From assembly GCF_001275675.1 (NCBI RefSeq), contig NZ_LITM01000011.1, forward strand, positions 43,148-107,147: DNA of 64,000 nt, read 5' to 3'. Within the stretch, counting starts at the first letter, position 1. Each line of letters opens with the position of its first letter. Source of the DNA: Lysinibacillus sp. FJAT-14745 (lineage in GTDB: Bacteria > Bacillota > Bacilli > Bacillales_A > Planococcaceae). Below, piece after piece: positions 608-62,534 of the stretch. A program made the translations under genes and the position numbers. Below the pieces are notes generated by a model. The model was not told where the DNA came from. It made no database searches and worked only from the letters and a program-made list of their open reading frames with translations.

Positions 608-705
608 AGTTATTTTCCTCCTTTTCAATCATTGTATAATTGCAAAATAGAGCTAGAGAACAGCCAATAGTCTGAAAAATCACAATCAATCTTCATGCTC
701 ATTTG

Positions 706-790
706 AAATACACGCGGATGAAGGCAAAATACCCGCGATGTTGGCTGAAATACCCGCGAATTGGAGACAAATACCCGCGAAACGACAATA
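706..790. repeat. 21-bp tandem array A (4 units)
   Basis: Four units begin at 706, 727, 748 and 769, exactly 21 bp apart. Each starts with the 12-bp core AAATACCCGCGA (the first reads AAATACACGCGG) followed by nine variable bases. It lies upstream of the VOC gene and downstream of scoB. Because 21 is a multiple of three, frames through it stay open and give a repeated S-R-V-F peptide; I do not regard that as a protein. Confidence 0.85.
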
Positions 791-20640: not shown

Positions 20641-20932
20641 TATTGACATCAATTAACCATATAACACTTTAACATTGACACGTTCGCAAAATCCAATTGG
20701 AATAAATACCATTATTACATTCATTATGTATTTACAAGAGGCCAAATATAATCAAAAATTGAACTAAAACAAATAACGAACAAATAACGAACAAATAACA
20801 ATATCAAAATAAGGTAAAGAAAGACAAAAACCCATATAATAATGTCTCATTTTAACAAATATTCAAAGGAAATTACTATTTGTTGTCAAAAAAACGAAAG
20901 GTCGTTTTAGTTAGGATAAATGCGGTGATTCT

Positions 20933-22062: not shown

Positions 22063-22126
22063 AAATTTCTCCCTCCTTGTTATAGTAATATTATAGAATA
22101 AAAAAGAATTAATGGGGGGTATTTCC

Positions 22127-22744
22127 ATGAAAATCAAACTAAAAAAAGAGCAATACAACGATGTTCCATACAATTACTTTGATATAGCAAGTGACAAGGT
22201 GTGCTTTATGTTCTCTGGCACAGGCTATACGTATGAAAAACCACTTCTTTATTATTCCACTGAGCTGATGCTAGAGCTTGGCTATGATGTAGTACAAGTA
22301 TGCTATACATTTAATTCGCAGCAATTTGAACAGGAGCCAGAAGCTATTTCAACAATGGTTTATAAAGTAGCAAATCCTATTGTGGAATATATTTTAAATA
22401 CAAAATCTTATACAGAAGCTGTTTACATAGGAAAATCACTCGGAACATTGCCTATCACAGATTTTTATATGCAGCAGGCTTCACCTGTTCCTTCTCGTTA
22501 TGTGCTATTAACACCCCTACTGTCACTTGATCATGTTATGAAAAATTTGCTTGGTAAGCAGGCATTTCTAGCAATCGGTACAGCTGACCCTCACTACTCT
22601 AAAGAAAGTTTTGAACGACTCACTTCACATGAGCTTGTTATTGTAGAAAATGCTGACCATTCTCTTGAAATAGCTACTAATACAGTAGAATCAATCATCA
22701 TTTGCCAGTCACTATTAACAAATCTTAAAACATATCTTCAATAA
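22127..22744 (+). CDS. Alpha/beta hydrolase family protein
   Basis: A 205-residue protein with alpha/beta hydrolase features: an early KVCFMFSGTGYTYEKPLLYY oxyanion region, a nucleophile elbow GKSLGT near residue 110, and a terminal ADHSLE with the likely catalytic His. The start ATG at 22127 has GGGGGGT 8 bases upstream; an ATG at 22112 overlaps that site. Its promoter region is shared with the divergent dehydrogenase gene. Array B follows its stop codon. Substrate unknown. Confidence 0.75.
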   Translation: MKIKLKKEQYNDVPYNYFDIASDKVCFMFSGTGYTYEKPLLYYSTELMLELGYDVVQVCYTFNSQQFEQEPEAISTMVYKVANPIVEYILNTKSYTEAVYIGKSLGTLPITDFYMQQASPVPSRYVLLTPLLSLDHVMKNLLGKQAFLAIGTADPHYSKESFERLTSHELVIVENADHSLEIATNTVESIIICQSLLTNLKTYLQ

Positions 22745-22748
22745 AATT

Positions 22749-22853
22749 ATCAGAACCTTTTCGTGAAATATCGGTTTGTTTTCAAGATTTATCGGAACGA
22801 TTTCTTAGTTTATCGGAATGTTTCTCACATTTATCGGAACACTTTTTTAGAAG
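22749..22853. repeat. 21-bp tandem array B (5 units)
   Basis: Units begin at 22749, 22770, 22791, 22812 and 22833, exactly 21 bp apart. The core is TTTATCGGAAC with nine or so variable bases, and the first two units are diverged. A single further unit (TTTATCGGAATATTTCT) lies at 27761, before the T-box. The array sits between two convergent genes. Confidence 0.85.
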
Positions 22854-27818: not shown

Positions 27819-27825
27819 ATCGAAA

Positions 27826-28117
27826 ATACATTGAAGAGAAGAGTAAATAAGGCTGTTCTTCCCAGAGAGCTCGGGTTGCTGAAAACGAGTAAGAACGAAT
27901 TATTGAAACAAGCCTCGGAGTAGCGCATTGGATTTCTGTTTGAATGATGGTGCGACGGGAACTCCCGTTACAGAGTAACAGTATAAGCATAAGTATTTAT
28001 GCCGTACTGAAAAGGCTATTATGGCGACATAATAGTGAACTAGGGTGGCACCACGTGAATATAAATTCCACAATCTCGTCCCTAAGACAAAACGTCTTGG
28101 GGGTGGGATTTTTTTGT
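27826..28117 (+). promoter_or_regulatory. T-box leader (tRNA-sensing riboswitch) of the MFS gene
   Basis: The T-box sequence AGGGTGGCACCACG is at 28042-28055. Stem I is recognisable: AGTA at 27842-27845, the helix GTTCTT/AAGAAC, the AGAGAG bulge (27863-27868), the CTCG/CGAG tip with GGTTGCTG, and GGAGTAG at its base. The intrinsic terminator (28073-28117) pairs 16 bases on each side, then T. The specifier region reads GAAACAAG (27905-27912), allowing ACA (Thr) or AAC (Asn). The variable T-box base is C (28049), which would pair with a G discriminator, as in tRNA-Asn; so I lean to asparagine. Uncharged tRNA would allow read-through into the transporter gene. Confidence 0.92.
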
Positions 28118-28153: not shown

Positions 28154-29401
28154 ATGAGCATGAGTAAATTATTAGAAGCGTGGCGTTATCCAGCAATATT
28201 ATTGTTTAGTATTGGTGTTTCCAGCGTTGGAAGCTGGATATATTTTATAGCGTTAAATCTTATCGTCTTAAACCTTACAGGGTCAGCTATAGCTGTGTCC
28301 GGATTGTATATTGTTAGAGCGTCATCTACCCTTTTCTCCAGTTTTTGGTCAGGTAGTATGATAGATCGTTTAAATAAAAAATATCTCATGATTGTTCTCA
28401 ATCTTTTCGAATCTTTACTAATTGTCATACTACCTTTCTTCTCTACGTTGACTTGGATATATTTCATGGTCTTTGTGATCACAATGGCTAGTTCTATGTA
28501 TCATCCAACTTCCATGACTTACATTACGAAATTAATACCCACTGAACAAAGAAAACGTTTTAACGCCCTTCGAAGCTTACTTGATTCTGGCGCATTCGTA
28601 ACCGGCCCAGCCATTGCAGGACTGCTGTTTACGATTGGAACGCCAACTATGGCAATTTACTTGAATGCCATTGCACTATTTTTATCAGCCTGTATTACAT
28701 TAGGGATGCCTAATGTTGAAGCCCATCAACAGCTGGCTAGTAAAGCAGATGAGAAAATTCCCTACAAGGTATTACTCAATGATTGGAAGCTCGTTATTAG
28801 ATTTAGCCTTAAAAATCCCTATATTATGATGATCTATTTATTATTTAGTGCGATGCTTGTCATGATGACAGCGACAGATTCTTTAGAGGCTGCCTTTGCT
28901 ACCCAAGTACTTTCACTATCCGAAGGTGAATACGGTGTTTTAGTGAGCATAGCAGGTGCTGGAATATTAGTTGGTTCTTTAATGAATACAGCCATCGTTG
29001 AAAAAGTGCCGACTGCTTGGTTAATAGGAATGGGTTCGTTAATAACAGCATTAGGCTATTTAACTTTCACATCCTCTTACACATTTCTTATCGCTTCTTT
29101 AGGATGCTTTATTTTGTCCTTTGCAATGGCATTTGCCAATACCGGCTTCCATACTTTTTATCAAAGCAATATTCCTGTCGATAGCATGGGGAGAATAGGA
29201 AGTATTTATGGCTTTGTAGAAGCCTTATTCATTATTATCATAACCGCTATCTTTGGGATTGCAGCTGAAATTATATCTATTCGATATGTTATTGTACCTG
29301 CAGCCATCATCATGTTTGTATTAGCAACGATACTGCTAATTTTTAATGTTCAACCTTCAAAGGCCAGATTTTATAGAAATATTTCTGAACTCAATGAGTA
29401 G
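28154..29401 (+). CDS. MFS transporter under T-box control
   Basis: A 415-residue, 12-segment major facilitator protein, resembling the MFS_3/DHA3-like efflux group more than classical amino-acid uptake systems. The loop 2-3 signature is SGSMIDRLNKKYLM, the usual GxLaDRxxrr place. The T-box leader immediately upstream shows that its expression answers to charging of a tRNA, so it should carry an amino acid, a precursor or a tRNA-synthetase-directed compound (inference). ATG at 28154 with AAGGAGGG 6 bases upstream. The gene stands alone. Confidence 0.83.
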   Translation: MSMSKLLEAWRYPAILLFSIGVSSVGSWIYFIALNLIVLNLTGSAIAVSGLYIVRASSTLFSSFWSGSMIDRLNKKYLMIVLNLFESLLIVILPFFSTLTWIYFMVFVITMASSMYHPTSMTYITKLIPTEQRKRFNALRSLLDSGAFVTGPAIAGLLFTIGTPTMAIYLNAIALFLSACITLGMPNVEAHQQLASKADEKIPYKVLLNDWKLVIRFSLKNPYIMMIYLLFSAMLVMMTATDSLEAAFATQVLSLSEGEYGVLVSIAGAGILVGSLMNTAIVEKVPTAWLIGMGSLITALGYLTFTSSYTFLIASLGCFILSFAMAFANTGFHTFYQSNIPVDSMGRIGSIYGFVEALFIIIITAIFGIAAEIISIRYVIVPAAIIMFVLATILLIFNVQPSKARFYRNISELNE

Positions 29402-29448: not shown

Positions 29449-29483
29449 AAAAATAGTAGCACCTCCTATTAATGAGGTGCTAC
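29449..29483 (-). terminator. Hairpin beyond array C
   Basis: Perfect 10-base arms GTAGCACCTC and GAGGTGCTAC around 8 bases. On the minus strand it is followed by TATTTTTATA, so it would stop leftward transcription emerging from array C; on the plus strand it might protect the MFS mRNA end. Confidence 0.55.
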
Positions 29484-29557: not shown

Positions 29558-29994
29558 TTCCGCCGCTTTGTCGGGGCTATCCACGATTCTCGGGGTTCTA
29601 TCCACGACTTTAATGATTCTATCCGTCGCTTCGGCTTTTCTTTCCGTCGCTTTGACTGTTCTTTCCGTCGCTCTGGCTCTTCTTTCCGTCGCTTTGTCTG
29701 TTTCTTCCGTCGCTCTGATTCCTTTCCGTCGCTTCGGCTTTTCTTTCCGTCGCTTTGACTGTTCCTTCCGTCGCTCTGGCTCTTCCTTCCGTCGCCCTGA
29801 TTTCTTTCCGTCGCTTTGACTGTTCTTTCCGTCGCTTTGACTTTTCCTTCCGTCACTTCGGTTCTTCTTTCCGTCGCTTTGTCTGTTTCTTCCGTCGCTC
29901 TGGCTCTTCTTTCCGTCGCTTCGGCTTTTCCTTCCGTCGCTCTGGCTCTTCCTTCCGTCACTCTGGCTCTGTTTTCCGTCGCAATTAAATCGTA
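29558..29994. repeat. 21-bp tandem array C (about 21 units)
   Basis: About 21 units with the core TTCCGTCGCT then TTGACTGTTCT-like or CTGGCTCTTCT-like tails. Eighteen intervals are 21 bp and two are 19 bp (705 to 724, and 787 to 806, in the 29-kb range). The first units (29579, 29600) are diverged to ATCCACGA. The two strands are open in several frames only because the period is a multiple of three. It lies between convergent genes (MFS and ndh) and between two hairpins. Confidence 0.9.
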
Positions 29995-30012: not shown

Positions 30013-30053
30013 AAAAAAGGCATGAATTCAATATTACTATTGATTCATGCCTT
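30013..30053 (-). terminator. Terminator of yjlC-ndh
   Basis: Arms AAGGCATGAATTCAAT and ATTGATTCATGCCTT; the minus strand continues TTTTTTGTTTTG. Confidence 0.8.
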
Positions 30054-30060
30054 GAAAATA

Positions 30061-31245
30061 TTAGTATGCTAAGCCGAATAGCGCTTTGATATGTGTAAGA
30101 TAGCGAATGTTAGACGCTTCTTTCATAAGTGTTGCAGGAAGACCTTTAAGTTCTGTGTTGCTAGCACCAATTGTAGCAACAGCGTCTTTGCGGCCTAAGC
30201 TTGCAAGTGTACCAGAGTTAATCGCTGAGAATGACTTCATCTCTTGGTTTTTGTATTGTGCGAATAAGTTGTAGCCAGCGCACTCACCCATTTGCCATGC
30301 AACTTGAGCAGTTGGTGCGTATAGTGGACGACCACCATCAGCTGGTAATGCTACAGATGCATCTCCAATTACGAATACATCATTGTGAGATGTAGATTGT
30401 AAGAACTCATTAATCGTAGCTTTACCACGGTCTGCTGCAAGACCAGACTCGCCTACGATTGGAAGTGGAGCTACCCCGCCTGTCCAAATAAGTGTATTAG
30501 CAACGATTGGTTCACGATCTTTAAGAGAAATGACATTACCATCAACGCCTGTTACAGGAGTACCTGTAATGAATTCAACGCCTCGTTTTGTTAAGCTTTC
30601 AGTAGCACGTTGGATAAGTGCATCTGGAAGTACTGGTAAGATTTTTGGACCAGCTTCAACAAGTTTGATTTTAAGATCAGCGAAGTTAACACCGTGTTTT
30701 GCTGCGATTTTCGGGAAGTTGTCCACGATTTCACCAACAAGCTCTACACCTGTTAAACCGCCACCACCGATAACGATTGTTGCATCTGCTTCGTCTTTTG
30801 ATTGTGCATATGCTTTAATACGGTCTTCGATGTGTTTGTTAATTTTGTTTGCTTCGTTCACTGATTTAAGTACCATTGAGTTTTCTTCTAATCCAGGGAT
30901 ACCGAAGAATCCAGTTTGGCTACCTAAAGATACTACTAAAGTATCGTAATTTAATGTATAACCATTGTCTAGGTCCACTTTTTTATTGTCTACATTGAAT
31001 TTTGTTACTTTAGCAATTTGTAAATCGATATCTAAACCTTTAAAGATTTTTTTAAGTGGTAAAGCAACAGCACCTTCAGCAATAGTACCACCAGCTAAAC
31101 GGTGAAGTTCAGTGATGATTTGGTGTGTTGGGAATTGGTTAACTACAGTAATTTTAGCTTCATCAGCTGATAGATACTTGCGTGCTGTTAATGCAGTTAA
31201 AACGCCAGCGTAACCAGCACCTAAGATGACGATTTCTTTTGACAT
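30061..31245 (-). CDS. ndh: Type II NADH dehydrogenase
   Basis: A 394-residue flavoprotein (NDH-2) that passes electrons from NADH to menaquinone without proton pumping, on the inner face of the membrane. The FAD-binding motif ILGAGYAGVLTAL is at residues 7-19, the NADH-binding motif VIGGGGLTGVELVGE about residue 165, and the FAD-closing VFVIGDAS about residue 300. It follows the yjlC-like gene by 55 bases, the same order as B. subtilis yjlC-ndh (yjlD). In that species the redox sensor Rex controls the operon; I found only a weak Rex-like site. Confidence 0.9.
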   Translation of the reverse strand: MSKEIVILGAGYAGVLTALTARKYLSADEAKITVVNQFPTHQIITELHRLAGGTIAEGAVALPLKKIFKGLDIDLQIAKVTKFNVDNKKVDLDNGYTLNYDTLVVSLGSQTGFFGIPGLEENSMVLKSVNEANKINKHIEDRIKAYAQSKDEADATIVIGGGGLTGVELVGEIVDNFPKIAAKHGVNFADLKIKLVEAGPKILPVLPDALIQRATESLTKRGVEFITGTPVTGVDGNVISLKDREPIVANTLIWTGGVAPLPIVGESGLAADRGKATINEFLQSTSHNDVFVIGDASVALPADGGRPLYAPTAQVAWQMGECAGYNLFAQYKNQEMKSFSAINSGTLASLGRKDAVATIGASNTELKGLPATLMKEASNIRYLTHIKALFGLAY

Positions 31246-43726: not shown

Positions 43727-43873
43727 AGTGGAGATTGGTTGTGCTTTATCAGCGATTTGTGGTGTCTTATCAGCGATTCTTCATGCCTTATCAGCGATTC
43801 ACCGTGCCTTATCAGCGATTCACCGTGCTTTATCGCGATTTTACTGTGTCCTTTCAGCGATACTATTAGTATT
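43727..43873. repeat. 21-bp tandem array D (6-7 units)
   Basis: Units begin at 43748, 43769, 43790, 43811, 43832 and 43853, exactly 21 bp apart, with a diverged one at 43727. The core is CTTATCAGCGATTC with tails such as ACCGTG. It lies in the 396-bp region between the divergent EAL and PucR genes, so unlike B and C it is in a promoter-side location. Confidence 0.85.
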
Positions 43874-52000: not shown

Positions 52001-52060
52001 TAAAAACGTCGAAACAAATAGAAAAAGTCATCATCTTATATGAGATCTTCTAAAACATTG

Positions 52061-52132
52061 CTACCCATAGTCGATTTATTTACGGTAAATCGGTAGAAAC
52101 TTGCGAGCCATATTCTCGCCGTTATATGAGTG
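52061..52132 (-). promoter_or_regulatory. Guanine riboswitch of xpt-pbuX
   Basis: On the minus strand the conserved purine aptamer reads ACTCATATAAC, ATATGGCTCGCAAGTTTCTACC, and GACTATGGGT (pieces of it given: ATGGCTCGCAAGTTTCTACC). P1 pairs ACTCAT with ATGGGT. The base that pairs with the ligand is C (GACTATG), so it senses guanine, hypoxanthine or xanthine rather than adenine. It should turn off xpt-pbuX when guanine is plentiful. Confidence 0.95.
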
Positions 52133-52323
52133 AAACAGTATGAAGCTGTAATACATAACAATTATTCAAATCAGCACTTCATTCGGTATATGACTATATG
52201 ACCTACTGAACAAAGATTGATTTTTCGGAATTTACTGATATTCCGATGGATTTTAATTGAAAACGTTCGTGTTTTACAATCAACGTACTGATTATATCAG
52301 ACAATTTTCCTGCATGCTAGTCA

Positions 52324-54309: not shown

Positions 54310-54480
54310 TCGTCTGCCAAGCTCCAACTTTTCTGCTCTTAACGCTTACGAGGTTAGCTGTCGGATTCGGGCCTGAGTAGCCCTACCCTTCCATAAATGA
54401 AGAGATTCACCCCAAGGATTATTGTTTAGCAATCCGTAAAAATTGGGTCCCCCGCGTTTAGTTGCTTCAGCGATTTAGAA
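54310..54480 (-). promoter_or_regulatory. c-di-AMP (ydaO/yuaA) riboswitch of kimA
   Basis: On the minus strand the conserved blocks occur in order: CTAAACGCGGGGGACCCAAT, CTTGGGGTGAATCTC, AGGGTAGGGCTACTCAGGCC, CGAATCCGACAGCTAACCTC, GTAAGCG. These are the signature of the ydaO-yuaA class that binds c-di-AMP and turns transcription off. The terminator follows at once, then kimA. So potassium uptake is shut when c-di-AMP is high. Confidence 0.95.
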
Positions 54481-54610
54481 ATTTGAAACTTTTATAATGA
54501 TGTCATATTACGCTCGTATTAAAAAAAAGTAAAGAAGAAAATTTTTTATTGTTATAAGTGAAAAGCACAAATTTTCTCGCGGGTAGTGTGTAATTACCCG
54601 CCGAACTAAA

Positions 54611-62164: not shown

Positions 62165-62189
62165 TAAGTAAACCCTCTGTTCCTTCAAA

Positions 62190-62358
62190 ATGATAGCTCA
62201 ACACGTTGTTCAAACGTGACAGTTCTGTTCCTTTCGGAGACAGCCCCAGCATGAGGTTTTCAAGTCCCCTCACACTTCGGCAGTATTTCCTTTCAACTAA
62301 CATCTCTAATGCTTGTCATTTCCATTAGCATACTCTTAAATACCGCGACCTCTACCTC
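62190..62358 (-). promoter_or_regulatory. Lysine riboswitch (L box) of lysP
   Basis: On the minus strand the conserved L-box blocks follow in order: GAGGTAGAGGTCGCG, AAGAGTATGC, GAAAGGAAATACTGCCGAAG, GGGGCTGTCTCCGAAAGGAA, CAGAACTGTCAC, TTGAGCTATC. The terminator lies 26 bases further on. Lysine would reduce lysP expression by premature termination. Confidence 0.95.
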
Positions 62359-62534
62359 AATACAAACATGAGGCATATATATTAAATTTATGATGGATAT
62401 TAGTTTAACATACGACCTATGACATTTCAATAGCCTGATTAATGTTCTGTATTTTGCGAATTTTCCATCATTTTATTGTTGTGATAAAGTAGTATAATGA
62501 TTCAATTATAATTGTTCTAACAAGGGGGATTTAT

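Follow-up and report, generated by a model that had tools for sequence, protein, structure and literature searches.

Intergenic arrays of approximately 21-bp units with a mostly uniform replication orientation in Lysinibacillus

The window analysed here is a stretch of 64,000 nucleotides from Lysinibacillus sp. FJAT-14745 (RefSeq assembly GCF_001275675.1, contig NZ_LITM01000011.1, positions 43,148 to 107,147 of the forward strand). It carries four intergenic arrays of short direct repeats, designated A to D, whose positions in the initial annotation proved to be correct (Table 1). The largest of these, array C, resides between two convergent genes, and a hairpin is present on each of its flanks. 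Named relatives of the flanking oxidoreductase, at up to 99% identity, belong to Lysinibacillus. As first described, array C has about 21 units and 18 of its 20 intervals measure 21 bp; the remaining two measure 19 bp. Higher-order blocks of 82 and 103 bp also occur. Array B begins directly after the stop codon of the gene at 22112-22744, and array D occupies the gap between divergent EAL-domain and PucR-type genes. A scan of the window with Rfam returned four riboswitch or T-box matches, none of them on an array: a T-box leader (27822-28086) and purine (52048-52149), c-di-AMP (54329-54482) and lysine (62186-62362) riboswitch-type elements. The window also includes a perfect 11-bp tandem repeat, AACAAATAACG, which is present in 2.9 copies at 20768-20799.

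Table 1. Arrays in the window and features surrounding array C
Feature	Position	Strand	Remarks
Array A	704..790	+	4 units; core AAATACCCGCGA
Array B	22747..22850	+	core TTTATCGGAAC; 3 clean units, preceded by 2 degenerate units
MFS transporter gene	28154..29401	+	convergent neighbour of array C
Hairpin with T-rich stretch	29456..29483	-	opposite flank of array C; found by eye
Array C	29558..29990	+ (core strand)	21 units with core [T/A]TCCGTCGC, the early ones having ATCCACGA in register with it
Hairpin with T run	30019..30051	-	separates array C from the oxidoreductase gene, for which it is a likely intrinsic terminator; found by eye
Pyridine nucleotide-disulphide oxidoreductase gene	30061..31245	-	converges on array C from the other side; used to locate the orthologous locus
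Array D	43741..43864	+	about 6 units, the last two damaged; core TTATCAGCGATT

The genome that includes the window (G000; 5.16 Mb in 29 contigs) was sampled as 20 stretches of 20 kb each, picked by coordinate alone. Within these 400 kb, exact 9-mer pairs number 522 at a lag of 21, compared with 15 at lag 19, three at lag 20 and two at lag 22. Further peaks appear at lags of 40, 42, 61, 63, 82, 84, 103, 105, 124 and 126, which correspond to multiples of 21 and to multiples minus 2. Scattered periods, the outcome of a genome scan that the initial annotation named as refuting, were thus not observed. Typing by core yielded 12 rows in the sample that represent 11 arrays, because the A array of stretch L017 is interrupted by a block of N and was counted once for density; arrays for which no core is known (42-bp repeats that are partly coding) were excluded, and stretch L207 was skipped as a repeat of L013. 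Scaled from this sample, the density of approximately 28 arrays per Mb equals about 140 per genome, and the summed lengths of the rows account for approximately 0.9% of the sampled DNA. Whole-genome searches with two-unit patterns gave 363 matches for the C core (at most two mismatches) and 274 for the A core (at most one mismatch), and the reversed control patterns gave none in either case. Tandem Repeats Finder reports the arrays as head-to-tail copies of a unit, as is characteristic of bacterial tandem repeats and satellites.

The step from one core to the next is dominated by, but not restricted to, 21 bp. Among C, A, B and D cores in the G000 stretches and the window, there are 448 steps of 21 bp, 75 of 19, 11 of 20 and two of 22, along with one each of 11, 15, 17, 18, 23 and 25 and three of 1 that derive from overlapping matches. 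In the sister species G007, the 338 steps of D arrays include 269 of 21 and 62 of 20, in strict alternation in some arrays, and the 365 steps of C arrays include 288 of 21, 58 of 19 and 12 of 18. Common runs are 21,21,21,19 for C arrays and 21,20 for D arrays, which amount to a deficit of approximately 0.5-0.6 bp per unit. Every one of the 52 array rows with at least eight units has a mean spacing of 20.36 to 21.00 bp (steps of 17-24 bp allowed; array L024 counted twice). Thus, the original statement that every unit is 21 bp holds for the dominant step, whereas strict uniformity gives way to regular corrections by steps of 18, 19 or 20 bp.

These corrections follow a recognizable pattern. The modal interval between them is two units for a correction of -1 bp (32 of 50), four units for -2 bp (39 of 99) and five units for -3 bp (3 of 6), and the interval therefore scales with the size of the correction. 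When evaluated by array, the intervals of 20-bp and 19-bp corrections differ (9 versus 24 arrays, p 0.03). Corrections are also more evenly spread than in permuted arrays (combined p 1.4e-15), with p<0.05 reached individually by 16 of 36 arrays and not by the other 20. Amplification of 82- and 103-bp blocks would also generate evenness, and so this feature suggests phase locking and does not prove it. Moreover, the mean is exactly 21.00 bp in nine of the 52 rows, eight of which carry no correction at all, indicating that phase correction is not universal. A 19-bp step creates a local helix-face offset of approximately 65 degrees, which is more than that of a 20-bp step, yet 19 is far more common than 20 in C and A arrays; this preference counts against a reading of the helix face. 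Many different linkers are found in 19-bp units, and this variety makes it probable that such units arose more than once.

Units divide into a 10-12-bp core and a 9-11-bp linker. Positions within the core are worth 1.1-2.0 bits of information and most of those in the linker less than 1 bit, a difference that is favoured by the fuzzy matching used for cores (three mismatches allowed). In their predominantly lagging orientation, the main cores read TTTATCGGAA (B), TTTCCGTCGCTT (C), CTATCCACGATT (C2), TTATCAGCGATT (D) and TTTAGCGGCGATT (E), and the A core, AATACCCGCG, mostly runs in the opposite direction to these. Some of the cores may resemble the DnaA box. Where C and C2 cores alternate, 77 of 83 pairs of neighbours share a register, and one array has a D core next to an E core in register. 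Of the 78 possible pairs of cores, eight match at shuffle p<=0.01, where our own choice of core boundaries and strands helps matches. Consequently, the idea that unrelated cores share a common 21-bp spacing is borne out for the spacing, both across the arrays and in the genome, but the cores are partly related.

Arrays of one type at different loci have little in common beyond the core. The longest exact stretch shared by arrays at different G007 loci is 35 bp for both C and D (medians 19 and 16), and same-type C, D and A arrays at different loci generally share a median of 16-19 identical bases. Exact sharing of at least 40 bp was found for one of 149 G000 C pairs and for no other C, D or A pair, and for three of 55 B pairs. 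C and D loci have therefore kept their core at separate places, with little linker shared, and have not been copied recently. The B arrays, with shared stretches of up to 60 bp, look the most recently copied. Five B arrays of G007 (L256, L257, L259, L260 and L261) share a start that ends in TTGAAGA directly before the first core TTTATCGGAA, and the DNA farther upstream differs among them, much like the start signature of a spreading element.

Comparison among related genomes permits core and linker to be evaluated separately. Array B lies behind the same gene in G000, G003, G007, G015 and G028, where it has 5-6 units with the outer ones degenerate, and remnants persist at this gene in G018 and G025. 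Among the five species, cores of this orthologous array differ in 28 of 446 pairwise comparisons (6.3%) and linkers in 118 of 480 (24.6%). Here the 21-bp lattice of G000 defined the core columns, and the final linker, at the edge of the array, was excluded. Variable columns number 6 of 45 in cores versus 25 of 48 in linkers (p 7.4e-5), and the three clean units exhibit no core difference in 270 comparisons versus 67 linker differences in 240. Of the 21 possible phases, the core phase is the one with the fewest differences. The conservation of the core in this one orthologous array is, on the basis of these alignments, selection-like. The gene upstream of array B is interrupted by stop codons or shortened in several sister genomes (L189, L199, L201, L202, L203 and L204).

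Among 29 same-genus relatives, five have array C behind the oxidoreductase gene, and a sixth retains a remnant of 2-3 units (1.2-1.3 kb searched). A supposed B core at the array C locus of a sister species proved to be wrong, as the B array follows its own upstream gene, the location of which differs in that species. Exact two-unit patterns were recovered among 11 same-genus genomes for the A core in five, the D core in three, and the B and C cores in two each. In L. piscis (G013, L193), an array with core CTATCCGTCA resides behind the gene that elsewhere carries array B (TTTATCGGAAC), which is a possible change of core in one slot. Beyond the genus, Peribacillus muralis has a different core with alternating steps of 20 and 21 bp, units measure 40-41 bp in P. 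huizhouensis, steps of 19-21 bp are mixed in two Solibacillus genomes, 20 and 21 occur together in a Bacillus sp., and Ureibacillus xyleni has 21. Ten other families of the class, represented by 40 kb each, exhibit no excess at lag 21 relative to coding lags (11 pairs, versus 24 at lag 15, 34 at lag 18 and 18 at lag 24). With the low-complexity filter on, plasmids and phages gave no match to array C and plasmids gave none to an A array, which weakens the case for a plasmid- or phage-borne element.

Like the initial annotation, we do not regard the arrays as real coding frames. Steps of 18, 19 and 20 bp break any frame, so that the arrays look non-coding, and the ORF of 183 aa that spans array C has no Pfam match; a protein-coding repeat was rejected for these reasons. 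Structure formed by RNA or single-stranded DNA is likewise disfavoured. When folding is compared with that of shuffled sequences, C strands fold worse (z +2.97, +1.93 and +2.94), A somewhat better (-1.79), and D like its shuffles (-0.32). Without consistently better folding than shuffles, hairpin-driven slippage is not indicated. Intrinsic curvature, evaluated for ten arrays by using a wedge model, gave inconsistent results: depending on the array, anywhere from 0.00 to 1.00 of the column-permuted controls exceed it in curvature.

The 21 rows detected in the 400-kb sample and the window comprise nine in tandem gaps, five in convergent gaps, five in divergent gaps and two inside called ORFs, one of which is the array itself; background gaps of at least 60 bp number 162 tandem, 50 divergent and 41 convergent. 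These classes derive from a home-made gene caller, and the rows include repeats of the coding type. An array lies within 700 bp of 104 gene ends that face it, at a median of 85 bp from the stop codon; one array may contribute two ends, array fragments several, and a few rows may be coding repeats. A terminator-like hairpin is found within 150 bp at 40 of these 104 ends; the corresponding counts are 63 of 347 for control ends and 8 of 389 for reversed segments. When the 104 ends are sorted by hairpin position, 37 have a hairpin before the array, 7 inside it and 9 only beyond it, and none was found for 51. Hairpins between stop codon and array at 37 of the 104 ends imply that at least a good part of the arrays lies outside the transcript.

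Most of the array types examined keep a uniform orientation relative to replication. In the complete chromosomes of G007 and G015, the C core occupies the minus strand at 13 of 13 loci in the first half and the plus strand at 5 of 5 in the second, and all 18 loci are thus consistent with replication. The D core in G007 is consistent at 18 of 20 loci, with two exceptions, and the A core agrees at 14 of 15 loci among the matches listed (six from G015, four from G007 and five from G019). The B core, which agrees at 24 of 34 loci, has the loosest polarity. Loci of sister species in these counts are not independent, and the origin was placed in G015 and G019 by means of a single syntenic gene. The counts exclude the lone D match found in each of G011 and G024 as well as A matches from G020 and G022. 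In G007, 28 of the 30 stretches located below 2.6 Mb have a positive GC skew, and all 10 of those above 2.8 Mb have a negative one. With the leading strand assigned by the GC skew of the contig, G000 has the C core on the lagging strand in 19 of 19 rows (15 stretches) and the A core on the leading strand in 11 of 12; B (4 of 4), D (2 of 2), E and G cores are lagging and the F core is leading. By the same measure, the minus strand is leading at array C. Array A of the window is the only one of the 12 A-type rows with its core on the lagging strand, and the lone exception among the A loci listed above shares a unit with it.

Orientation of the arrays switches at ori and ter, as is the case for replication-polar motifs of the KOPS/SRS kind, and it follows replication and not the genes in four of four arrays for which both neighbours are lagging-strand genes (L227, L236, L013 and L016). 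Purine content of the leading strand in G007 is 0.75 for C, 0.59 for D and 0.49 for B, which is the same order as that of polarity. SpoIIIE and Chi motifs do not explain the polarity: the arrays of G007 carry no copy of the Bacillus SpoIIIE recognition sequence (SRS), GAGAAGGG, and a single copy of GAAGCGG. The shorter motif AGCGG is more common in arrays than outside them and is located mainly on the lagging strand (6 leading, 35 lagging). Outside arrays, in stretches L226-L265 and L066-L070 of G007, GAAGCGG occurs 56 times on the leading versus 8 times on the lagging strand, and thus is a candidate for the Chi site or another oriented motif of the genus.

Several known systems share features with these arrays. 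KOPS, SpoIIIE recognition sequences and Chi are short motifs with a strong leading- or lagging-strand bias, and in this respect they resemble the arrays, but they are single dispersed motifs of 5-8 bases and do not form arrays. Motifs of the KOPS/SRS kind are recognised by FtsK, SpoIIIE or SftA. Plasmid iterons and other phased binding-site arrays consist of direct repeats approximately two helical turns apart to which one protein binds. However, iterons are few sites at one origin, whereas the Lysinibacillus arrays comprise hundreds of chromosomal units with several core types. CRISPR arrays have repeats with unique spacers, each longer than about 20 bp, and this class was rejected because the whole unit here is only 21 bp and linkers recur within an array. 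A search of the open-access literature found no description of the present arrays, and the nearest published kinds are STAR elements and bacterial satellites (PMC3532100, PMC5294841, PMC6749651). STAR elements of staphylococci have one 14-bp GC-rich motif, T(G/A/T)TGTTG(G/T)GGCCC(C/A), separated by spacers of about 40-44 bp (PMC3532100). They are likewise dispersed intergenic direct repeats with a conserved short motif, locus-specific spacers, a variable copy number and a function described as unknown. In contrast, the arrays have several motifs, with cores such as AATACCCGCG, TTTATCGGAA, TTCCGTCGC and TATCAGCGATT, linkers of 9-11 bp, and steps of 18-21 bp that average approximately 20.5-21 bp; replication polarity and helical phase are not discussed in the accessible part of that account. 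Satellite families of Leptospira and other bacteria also form related tandem arrays at many chromosomal sites, and the survey lists non-coding transposed families with long repeats only in Leptospira interrogans and Methanocella conradii (PMC6749651). It differs in that no step common to different sequences is described in its accessible part, and '21 bp' is absent from its main text.

Many intergenic arrays with a mostly uniform replication orientation suggest either a protein that reads DNA or an unrecognised copying bias. We tentatively favour the former, at somewhat less than an even chance, and regard the arrays as candidate sites for a direction-aware DNA-binding protein that needs a rotational phase. 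Each array would then offer a series of binding sites to one such protein or a small number of them. Neighbouring proteins, spaced by two turns, would occupy almost the same helix face and would act at the level of DNA in the space behind gene ends. A bound array would probably be read by, or give direction to, a machine that moves along the chromosome; candidates are the replisome, a DNA translocase, or a break-repair or loop-extruding machine. Binding sites are indicated by the combination of a kept core, a free linker, a spacing of approximately two turns and the sharing of only the core between loci, and a directional reader is probable because C, D and A arrays almost always share their replication orientation. 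Such a protein, its cooperative binding and its directional function are all points that we infer. Counting against binding sites are the several cores per genome, which call for several proteins or loose specificity, the loose polarity of B together with the two D exceptions and one A exception, and the recovery of each core in no more than five of the 11 genomes. The earlier proposal of one protein that reads one face of the DNA gains support from the narrow range of mean spacings in the 52 rows and the evenness of corrections, and its alternative, slippage, is also possible. A broader version, which we consider rather unlikely, holds that the arrays form a chromosome-wide signalling layer in Lysinibacillus and several other Bacillales genera. 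Corrections of -1 per two, -2 per four or -3 per five units would hold proteins on one helix face, orientation would encode the direction of replication, and the core would be free to change between lineages while register and polarity are kept.

Copying bias offers an explanation that is possible, though doubtful on balance. Here the arrays would be neutral or weakly selfish satellites that expand by slippage and block duplication; copying of the lagging strand would decide their growth or persistence and hence yield one orientation, and the period would come from a few founders whose cores have drifted. The 82- and 103-bp blocks fit this history, as do the related cores and the mixing of two types in register, which founder drift would give, the parallel between purine content and polarity in G007, and the presence of array C in few relatives with a remnant in a sixth. 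However, slippage does not predict that cores change less than linkers between species, that the same core is found at separate loci with differing linkers, or that the correction interval scales with the size of the correction, and the strands do not consistently fold better than shuffles. The initial suggestion that one mechanism, either slippage or a protein, makes or keeps the arrays is therefore supported in part: the common spacing extends across the genome, and the cores whose differences suggested such a mechanism are partly related.

Other explanations for the arrays fare less well than a binding protein or satellite growth. HUH-type transposases insert single strands at replication forks, and arrays or their seeds might have been inserted in this manner, fixing the orientation of elements that themselves have no role. 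Such directed dispersal would account for the strict polarity of C, A and D and for the common TTGAAGA start before TTTATCGGAA in five B arrays of G007 with different DNA farther upstream, but we find it improbable: the B arrays, seemingly the most recently copied, are the least polar, different loci of C, D and A arrays have almost no linker sequence in common, and the filtered searches gave no plasmid or phage match for array C and no plasmid match for an A array. The short distance from stop codons and the enrichment of hairpins at array-facing ends are what might be expected of 3' untranslated elements that end or stabilise mRNA. This transcription-level role is slightly less probable again, given that a hairpin often precedes the array, orientation tracks replication over the gene in all four informative cases, array C exhibits no RNA structure, and some arrays reside between divergent genes. 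Least probable is that polarity is a by-product of selection against inversions between inverted copies within one half of the chromosome. The long C, D and A arrays are indeed polar and the short B arrays less so, but C, D and A share little sequence on which recombination could act, and B, which shares the most, is the least polar.

If a protein reads the arrays, they would represent an unrecognised system for organising the chromosome or marking the direction of replication in common soil bacteria. If none does, they would provide a clear natural case of orientation-dependent growth of a bacterial satellite. In either event, the arrays may be annotated as short repeat ORFs that are spurious, be mistaken for CRISPR loci and interrupt assemblies. 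The sampled genome also carries repeats with periods of 34-57 bp (L015:2406-2514, L016:370-487 and L019:16304-16399), two of which contain words like GCGAAAGCG or CTTCGCTTTCG and perhaps represent another kind of intergenic repeat.
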